34,557 bases of DNA from positions 1 to 34,557 of the forward strand of contig SMXS01000099.1 of assembly GCA_004356955.1 (NCBI GenBank), read 5' to 3'. The DNA is from Alphaproteobacteria bacterium. GTDB lineage: Bacteria > Pseudomonadota > Alphaproteobacteria > SMXS01. The notes under the pieces are model-generated. The model was not told the origin of the DNA, searched no databases, and worked only from the letters and a program-made list of their open reading frames with translations. The position numbers and the translations under genes were made by a program. Position 1 is the stretch's first letter; every line of letters begins with the position of its first letter. Below are positions 7,007 to 9,402 of this stretch, piece by piece.

Positions 7007-7918
7007 ATGGCGTCCAATCAACTTCCTGTCGTTATCAGCCCGGAAGGCAGCCTTTCGCGCTATCTGCAGGAAATCCGCAAATTCCCGCTGCTCTCAAAAG
7101 ATGAAGAGTACATGCTCGCCAATCGCTGGCAAGAGCACGAAGACACCGAAGCCGCGCATCAGCTGGTGACCAGCCATCTGCGCCTGGTGGCCAAGATTGC
7201 TATGGGCTATCGCGGTTATGGCCTGCCCTTGGGCGAGCTGATCTCTGAAGGCAATGTCGGCATGATGCAGGCGGTCAAACGGTTTGACCCGGAGCGGGGC
7301 TTCCGCCTGGCGACCTACGCCATGTGGTGGATCCGCGCATCCATTCAGGAATATGTGCTGCGGTCGTGGTCCCTGGTAAAAATGGGCACGACGGCGGCCC
7401 AAAAGAAACTGTTTTTCAACCTGCGTCGCATCAAGGGTCAAATAGAGGCCATCGATGATGGCGACCTGCATCCTGATCATGTCACCGAAATCGCCACCAA
7501 ATTAGGCGTGCCCGAACATGAAGTTGTCAACATGAACCGCCGCATGAGCGGTCAGGACAGTTCACTGAACGCCCCCCTGAAGTCAGATTCAGATACCGAC
7601 TGGCAGGACATGCTGGTGGATGATGAAATCGATCAGGAATCACAGCTGGCCGAACAAAGCGAGATGGACCTGCGCAGGGAATTGCTGCTGGAAGCCATGC
7701 AGGGTCTGAATGAACGTGAACAGCACATTTTGACCGAACGCCGCCTGAAAGACGACATATCGACCCTTGAGGACCTCAGCCAGATTTATGACATTTCGCG
7801 CGAGCGAGTGCGTCAAATTGAGGCCCGTGCCTTCGAGAAGCTGCAAAAAGCCATGAAGAACGCCATGCGCGAACGACTGCTCGCCAGCGAAGAAGCGCGC
7901 GAAGAGCACGTCAGCTAA
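7007..7918 (+). CDS. rpoH: RNA polymerase heat-shock sigma factor RpoH (sigma32)
   Basis: A 303-residue group 3-like sigma factor. Region 2 is present (SHLRLVAKIAMGYRGYGLPLGELISEGNVG ending in TYAMWWIRASIQEYVLRSWSLVK); the RpoH box QKKLFFNLR is at 132-140; region 4.2 reads ISRERVRQIEARAFEKL. The RpoH box separates it from RpoD. The protein directs polymerase to chaperone and protease promoters during heat and envelope stress. It is degraded by FtsH in many proteobacteria, and ftsH is also in this window with a sigma32-like promoter. The start is the ATG at 7007, with GAGG 8 bases upstream; that ribosome site can be paired by an upstream leader segment. It converges on purA. Confidence 0.97.
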   Translation: MASNQLPVVISPEGSLSRYLQEIRKFPLLSKDEEYMLANRWQEHEDTEAAHQLVTSHLRLVAKIAMGYRGYGLPLGELISEGNVGMMQAVKRFDPERGFRLATYAMWWIRASIQEYVLRSWSLVKMGTTAAQKKLFFNLRRIKGQIEAIDDGDLHPDHVTEIATKLGVPEHEVVNMNRRMSGQDSSLNAPLKSDSDTDWQDMLVDDEIDQESQLAEQSEMDLRRELLLEAMQGLNEREQHILTERRLKDDISTLEDLSQIYDISRERVRQIEARAFEKLQKAMKNAMRERLLASEEAREEHVS

Positions 7919-7920
7919 AA

Positions 7921-8007
7921 TAATTAAGGGGACACAATACTTAATTGTAGGCCAGCAGCGCGTATAGCTCGGCCAATAGGCAATTAAGTATTGTGTCCCC
8001 TTAATTA
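7921..8007. repeat. Palindromic MITE/REP-like element, perfect 27-bp terminal inverted repeats
   Basis: Bases 7921-7947 and 7981-8007 are exact reverse complements over 27 bp, separated by 33 bases that contain a further GGCC/GGCC pairing (7950-7953 with 7971-7974). Each arm contains the core AAGGGGACACAATACTTAAT. I recall closely similar AATTAAGGGGACA-type arms beside Y1/RAYT-type transposases in other proteobacteria, but I cannot check this here. No ORF lies inside. AT-rich TTAATTA steps continue to 8030. It starts 2 bp after the rpoH stop and could also act as a bidirectional transcript end. Confidence 0.8.
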
Positions 8008-8035
8008 CCTTTAATTATAGGCCCTTAATTTTCCA

Positions 8036-8087
8036 GGCCACAAGTGGCCCGGCGCTCGTGCGCCGCCCCCGCGGAGTCGTGCGCGAC
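8036..8087. terminator. Cluster of three GC-rich hairpins between rpoH and purA
   Basis: Three perfect hairpins occur in a row: GGCCAC-aa-GTGGCC (8036-8049), CGGCGC-tcgt-GCGCCG (8050-8065) and GTCG-tgcg-CGAC (8076-8087). Neither strand has a proper T-run directly after them, though GGAAAATT follows the first stem on the minus strand. They may end or stabilise the purA and rpoH transcripts. Confidence 0.4.
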
Positions 8088-8109
8088 AGCGCATTGGCGT
8101 GAGCGATAA

Positions 8110-9402
8110 TCAGTCCGCAAATGGATCCTTTACCATGATCGTGTCTTCGCGTTCGGGGCTGGTGGACAACAAAGCCACCGGTGCCTCGATCAATTCCTCG
8201 ATCCGGCGGATATATTTAACCGCTGTTGCGGGTAAATCAGCCCAGGACCGGGCACCATAAGTGCTCTCACTCCAGCCTTCCATCGTTTCATAGATCGGCA
8301 CAACGCCCGCCTGGTTTTCAACGCCATTGGGGAAGTAGTCAATGCGTTCGCCATTCAACTCGTAGCCCACGCAGACCTTCAGTTCTTCCATGCCATCGAG
8401 CACGTCAACCTTGGTCAGGGCGATGCCCGTGATACCCGCAATTTTAATGGCCTGGCGCACCATGACGGCATCGAACCAACCGCACCGGCGTTCGCGCCCG
8501 GTGACGGTGCCAAATTCGTGCCCCCGTTCGCCCAGACCCCGGCCAATTTCGTCATGCAGCTCGGTCGGGAAAGGACCCGCCCCAACGCGCGTCGTATAGG
8601 CTTTGGTGATCCCGAGAATGTAATCCAGCGTGCCGGGGCCAACGCCTGACCCGGCGGCGGCCTGTCCCGCCAACGTGTTGGACGACGTCACAAAGGGATA
8701 CGTGCCGTGGTCGATATCCAGCATGGTGCCCTGCGCACCTTCAAACAGAATGCGACAGCCTTTGGTTTTCTTTTCATCCAGAAAGCGCCAGCCAGAGCAG
8801 GCAAATTCGAGAATTTTCGGGGCGATCTCCATCAACTGGTTGACCAGCGTATCGCGGTCAGCCTCGGCATGGCCCAGGCCTCTGCGCAGCGGGTTATGAT
8901 GGGCCAGCAACACATCAACCCGCGCTGCAACAGCGTCTCGGCTGGTGAGGTCACATACGCGGACAGCACGACGACCAATCTTGTCTTCATAGGCCGGACC
9001 GATCCCACGACGCGTCGTGCCAATCTTGGTTGCATCAGCCGAGGCATCTTCACGAATGCCATCCAACTCGCCGTGCAATGGCAGAATAAGCGACGCATTA
9101 TCAGCGATGTGCAGCACATCCCGGTCAATCGTGACGCCCTGGCTGCGCAATTGTTCAATTTCTTTCATCAACGCCCACGGGTCGACAACAACACCATTGC
9201 CGATCAGCGACGGGCGGCCGCGCACGACACCCGATGGCAGCAGCGACAGCTTATAGGTCGTATTGCCGATGACCAGCGTATGGCCCGCATTGTGCCCGCC
9301 CTGAAAGCGCACGACAACGTCTGCGCGCTCTGACAGCCAATCGACAATCTTGCCTTTACCTTCGTCGCCCCACTGCGACCCCATGACCACTACATTTGCC
9401 AT
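8110..9402 (-). CDS. purA: Adenylosuccinate synthetase
   Basis: A 430-residue full-length enzyme that joins IMP and aspartate with GTP to make adenylosuccinate, the first committed step to AMP. The N-terminal [16 protein letters not shown] phosphate loop, GGHNAGHT, the [19 protein letters not shown] block, [21 protein letters not shown] and [10 protein letters not shown] are all in place. Its ATG overlaps the stop of hisZ by one base (TAATG), so translation is probably coupled to hisZ; a G-rich ribosome site lies in the hisZ end. It is last in the minus-strand run and converges on rpoH across the palindromic spacer. Confidence 0.98.

Follow-up and report, generated by a model that had tools for sequence, protein, structure and literature searches.

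A perfect inverted repeat directly behind rpoH, the gene of the heat-shock sigma factor (sigma-32), raises the question of whether this place holds an ordinary transcript end or a mobile element. The window, which is the whole stretch of DNA that was analysed, comprises 34,557 nucleotides of an uncultured alphaproteobacterium. As claimed in the original prediction, two arms of 27 nt and 100% complementarity lie 33 nt apart, and an inverted-repeat search found them to be the only inverted pair in the region 7700-8300. The left arm (7921..7947, plus strand) includes the core GGGGACACAATACTTAATT, the loop occupies 7948..7980 (33 nt), and the right arm (7981..8007, minus strand) is the exact reverse complement of the left. 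The motif GGGGWSAS is present in both arms, as GGGGACAC, at 7928-7935 in the left arm and at 8000-7993 of the minus strand in the right arm. When mismatches at the foot are allowed, the whole stem reaches 31 bp (7917..8011). The stop codon of rpoH (TIGR02392; 7007..7918, plus strand) precedes the left arm by two bases only; the converging gene purA (TIGR00184; 8110..9402, minus strand) ends 102 bp past the right arm. A 20-mer of the arm occurred twice in the window, against a mean of 0 over 100 shuffles.

Folding of the RNA of 7905-8025 gave -54.4 kcal/mol against -25.6 (sd 3.6) for dinucleotide shuffles, 0/200 of which were as low, and the hairpin was predicted to be very stable on both strands. 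The Rfam search returned no match above a gathering score. A simple rho-independent terminator that serves rpoH and purA in both directions and is a perfect palindrome by chance would agree with this stability and with the site between converging genes; in addition, the corresponding place in the sister species (G001) is occupied by an ordinary intrinsic terminator, in an rpoH-purA gap of approximately 77 bp compared with 191 bp in the source genome. However, no T-run follows the stem: a simple scan of 7850-8150 for G+C-rich stems with a T-run, allowing loops of 3-8 nt only, found no intrinsic terminator. Moreover, the arm sequence itself, and not pairing alone, recurs at other genes and in other phyla, and these ends are common to transposase genes (see below). 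We consider chance formation of a terminator very unlikely, and the ending of transcripts may be a secondary role. A role of the hairpin in ending or shielding the transcripts of rpoH and purA is conceivable and, since no terminator was found in the region where the sister species has one, the hairpin may plausibly have replaced that terminator.

The source genome (G000, 91.1% complete) was searched with one arm, as the original prediction had proposed. At up to 3 mismatches, 13 matches were obtained against 1 for the reversed control pattern, and these resolve into six inward-facing inverted pairs plus a single half cut off by the end of a contig (family A). A single copy kept at one place across relatives, the outcome named beforehand as contrary to a mobile element, was not what was found: the element has several copies, and the sister species lacks it. 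The GGGG form was seen in the window copy only, in both of its arms, the other copies of the source genome having AGGG or AGGA, while the loops of these family A copies were wholly different from one another. An alignment of seven own-genome copies showed no conservation of the GTAG tetranucleotide at the REP foot.

When the source genome and its relatives were searched at up to 2 mismatches, 6 of the 191 genomes, including the source genome, had a match for the arm. The arm was absent, at the same threshold, from nine other genomes of the family, namely the sister species and eight more. In a genome from another family of the class (G131), 13 forward and 13 reverse matches form 13 dimers with the same core. 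Two further dimer families of the same build were found on contigs of the source genome: family B (GGTGACAGTTTACTAATTA), with at least 5 dimers in the stretches examined, and family C (GGGGACAGTGCATAATTAATT), with at least 6 dimers in the stretches examined and 8 forward and 7 reverse matches genome-wide. No match for family C was found in nine same-family genomes.

Other structures were observed next to the dimers. Partial second copies of the arm end lie beside the element in the window (8008-8030) and at L013, L036 and L040, as if the insertion place resembled the end or insertions piled up. A G+C-rich multi-hairpin repeat located directly downstream of the window element (8035-8107) has copies at G000:C64:3110-3182, C77 and C43:2286, and in the sister species; the C43:2286 copy is approximately 40 bp from another family A dimer. 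At G000:C149:10523-10612 (L010) a family A dimer lies beside, perhaps inside, palindromes (CGTCATGCCGGGA / GGATCCCGCATCAAGTGCGGGATGACG) similar to those named CGTC in PMC3733652.

The 18-bp core GGGACACMATACTTAATT was found in at least 116 stretches in genome contigs and in 10 in IMG/VR. According to the record titles these belong to Alpha-, Gamma- and Deltaproteobacteria, Omnitrophota, Nitrospirae, Elusimicrobia, Planctomycetaceae, Actinomycetes, Clostridia and others; since almost all of these are MAGs, a binning error may have occurred in single cases. The 126 loci fetched by this core (936,543 bases) contain 902 ORFs at most 1 kb from an arm, and the commonest recurrent family among them was a Y1 transposase, present at 9 loci. 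The gene adjoins an arm in eight loci and, where both flanks were covered, the arms are inverted around it, the exception being L090, where only the upstream arm lies beside the gene. A scan of the 126 loci placed 12 of 16 Y1-like places at 0-44 bp from an arm (4 of the 12 being fragments), and the complete Y1 genes near arms lay between inverted arms where both flanks were covered. Neighbouring arm pairs within 150 bp were inward-facing in 73 of 91 cases, direct in 9 and 8, and outward-facing in 1, with one locus entered twice in this count (L044 = L127). The resemblance of the arm to sequences flanking Y1/RAYT genes, suggested in the original prediction, was borne out in this way: arms with the same core flank Y1 genes in other genomes, not in the source genome. 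Two side structures were seen among these loci: at L112 (315-1214) a TIRtron gene has a small arm cluster behind it, with one arm forward and three reverse at 29 bp spacing, and L080, L093, L100 and L114 (isolate B17T1B10) contain dimers with loops of 4-6 nt, distinct from the class of 33-43 nt.

RAYT-like genes flanked by long TIRs, some of them sharing GGGGWSAS, have been described as TIRYT (PMC3733652). All eight TIRYTs checked here were above the cut-off of the Pfam domain PF01797, and the NCBIfam model for REP-associated tyrosine transposases (RAYT) gave 64-81 bits with a cut-off of 80 (five of eight TIRYTs scanned). The HUH and catalytic-tyrosine region was conserved among seven aligned TIRYTs, the conserved tyrosine presumably being the catalytic one. 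All full-length TIRYTs share a conserved C-terminal GRPLG..GPK region, in which no Pfam helix-turn-helix match was obtained at E 0.1; a C-terminal helix-turn-helix is given for subclass 2.1 (PMC6006769). On plasmids, no DNA match was found for a family A copy, and the TIRYT relatives were all below 60% identity.

The source genome gave 0 matches to PF01797, so no cognate Y1 transposase was detected, and no Y1 gene was found in the sister species with the same model. Mobilisation by an enzyme encoded elsewhere, as suggested in the original prediction, fits these results more strongly than was meant. We infer that the enzyme that moved family A was lost from the lineage or lies in the unassembled part of the genome. 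Y1 genes, seven in all, occur in 4 of the 10 genomes of the family, and a GGKGACA motif was found upstream of every one of them. Their ends are of three types, one GGGGACACAATAC (A), one GGTGACAGTTTAC (B) and five GGTGACAGTGCA (C), which are those of the three dimer families of the source genome. The A-type enzyme of this family (L257) has the motif on its upstream side alone, and its tail is diverged. In G131, the TIRYT L034 has C-type ends and an adjacent dimer with a loop of approximately 34 nt, and no family A arms lie near either of the two Y1 genes of that genome. C-type ends were also present in the four examined of the eight TIRYT relatives found in IMG/VR.

A tree was built from 15 TIRYTs and an outgroup, leaving out the fragment L091; in it the C types formed one clade (100/99), the B type joined it (99/97) and the A types branched outside. 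L137, whose ends read GGGACAGCATAC, was labelled A by hand. The end-type labels required 3 changes on this tree, the minimum possible, and 0/200 shuffles were as low. The end type follows the transposase tree, with three end types tied to three lines of TIRYT.

No such element was found downstream of rpoH in the sister species, in G002 or in G003, which provides the empty site in a close relative that the original prediction had suggested looking for. A second empty site was identified for the G131 copy at C3:440760: the related genome G191, in which a search allowing up to 2 mismatches gave no arm at all, lacks both arms and loop at that place. No clear target duplication was seen there, and the joint was not exact because the flanks are only approximately 80% identical. 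These data bear on the possibility that the element is a MITE moved by a DDE transposase instead of a Y1 enzyme. MITEs of this kind usually look like short inverted-repeat elements with no gene, an appearance which the element shares. However, in the 126 loci the transposase genes clustering at the arms are Y1 genes, with no recurrent non-Y1 transposase, and the one resolved empty site, although inexact at its joint, shows no clear target duplication; this explanation is largely refuted and has hardly any probability left.

The position of the dimers relative to gene ends, a further point raised in the original prediction, was determined as well. Gene neighbours were assigned by an ORF rule and not from annotation for 30 dimers, one of which was untypable: the dimers lie at gene 3' ends, 18 of 29 between convergent genes, 9 between tandem and 2 between divergent genes. 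Since a genome has about as many gaps between converging as between diverging genes, the excess of 18 over 2 suggests that, as with REPs, copies in promoter regions are selected against. Operator sites of a regulon, repeated because one regulator binds them, would also be a conserved sequence recurring within one genome, but this 3' location and the absence from same-family genomes make that reading scarcely credible.

The original prediction had taken the perfect arms as a sign of recent insertion or of selection. Recent insertion does not follow, since arm variants co-vary within elements. Among the 13 family A dimers of G131, arm variants were shared within an element more often than between re-paired arms, 0/5000 permutations being as high; the corresponding values were 33/5000 for family C and 165/5000 for family B, and for family A in the source genome the sharing was not significant (692/5000). 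Identical elements were counted once here and for the untrimmed loop z values below. Hairpin-templated correction would give such co-variation, and perfect arms alone are therefore not proof of recency.

Between cores, the loops measured 34-42 nt in all but one of the 30 dimers, and 32 nt in the remaining one. In G131 the family A arms differed by 8% on average (78 copy pairs), and the closest pair of loops (identity 0.67) was no closer than shuffled loops (0.66). The loop of the window element had no relative in its own genome or in the sister species, and family A loops of the source genome were unrelated (z 0.1), while those of families B and C were diverged relatives (z 3.5 and 6.0). For the G131 loops a z of 4.6 was obtained untrimmed, and of 1.6 and 1.9 after trimming 3 and 5 bases, indicating that the apparent kinship comes mostly from the first and last bases. 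A pair of Clostridia MAG loci (L074/L158) has half a loop in common (score 15 against a shuffle top of 14, the half-loop being judged by eye). Together with the related loops of families B and C, this indicates that loops can be inherited. Loops thus change, whether by drift or by being made anew, at a far higher rate than the arms, which may be kept by enzyme recognition together with hairpin-templated correction. That the loop is not inherited on spread, each copy receiving or quickly remaking its own filler of approximately 35 nt between near-identical arms, seems to us rather unlikely, although simple whole-unit copying is hard to square with the 13 copies of G131.

Other sources of the loop were considered and rejected. 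Pre-existing host DNA enclosed between two insertions is contradicted by the empty site in G191 (one site), which has no loop, and by the absence of the window loop from the rpoH-purA gap of the sister species. A remnant of a deleted TIRYT gene is contradicted by scores of loops against TIRYT genes that were no better than those of shuffles. For an origin elsewhere in the genome, no second match was found in the stretches searched, which covered 4/13 of the G131 and 5/17 of the G000 dimers.

The element is in all probability a non-autonomous, REPIN-like TIR dimer of the TIRYT (TIRtron) branch of Y1/HUH transposases. The basis for this is formed by multi-copy dimers of fixed orientation, the same ends at Y1 genes elsewhere, an end type that tracks the enzyme clade and an empty orthologous place in the sister species. 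Against it stand the lack of a detected Y1 gene in G000 and G001, TIRYTs with no Pfam helix-turn-helix and the upstream-only motif of L257. Such a dimer would consist of two transposon ends facing each other around a filler of approximately 35 nt that stands where the transposase gene would be. On the model of REPINs, IS200/IS605 and TnpA-REP, the last of which cuts single-stranded REP (PMC8266576), the dimer would fold into a hairpin when single-stranded on the lagging strand, and a Y1 enzyme would recognise the ends through the GGGGACAC.. core. The enzyme would then cut and join the strand, a chemistry borrowed from the same systems, and the dimer would be moved or copied to a new intergenic place, mostly at gene 3' ends.

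If so, a mobile element has remodelled a heat-shock sigma factor gene at its 3' end, and this element belongs to a family of REPIN-like hairpins that is orphaned in its uncultured alphaproteobacterial host. The pairing of end types with TIRYT lines, three of each, provides a recognition code that can be tested in a branch of the HUH enzymes whose target recognition was left open by PMC6006769, and the loss of loop similarity while arms are kept poses a quantitative puzzle as to how such elements copy themselves.

A literature search with the letters of the arm gave nothing on such repeats, judged by title among the matches listed, and comparison was made with three known systems. The element shares with TIRtrons the GGGGWSAS core, inverted ends around a Y1 gene, and TIR dimers and clusters, which are reported for some genomes (PMC3733652). 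Unlike the TIRtrons of that paper, three dimer families occur here with no detectable TIRYT, and A-type arms are common to several phyla; fixed-length, unrelated filler loops are not described in its text, figures aside. The HUH/Y1 domain (PF01797) of the enzymes sharing the ends of the element is also that of the IS200/IS605 insertion sequences, from which the element differs by ends that are long inverted repeats and by having no transposase gene. In REPINs a short and very diverse spacer is enclosed by two REPs in inverted orientation (PMC8049555), with spacers less conserved and compensatory changes in the arms (PMC3116915); the element resembles REPINs as a non-autonomous, hairpin-forming inverted doublet with a diverse spacer and compensatory arm changes, and differs from them in having no conserved GTAG head and few copies. 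Subclass 2.1 holds 20 of the 26 described TIRYTs and 291 of 292 RAYT group 1 sequences (PMC6006769). The element very probably falls in this TIRYT branch (subclass 2.1 / RAYT group 1), whereas REPINs fall in groups 2 and 3; it adds a new example to a kind of repeat that is already known and is a further case of TIRYT/TIRtron ends.
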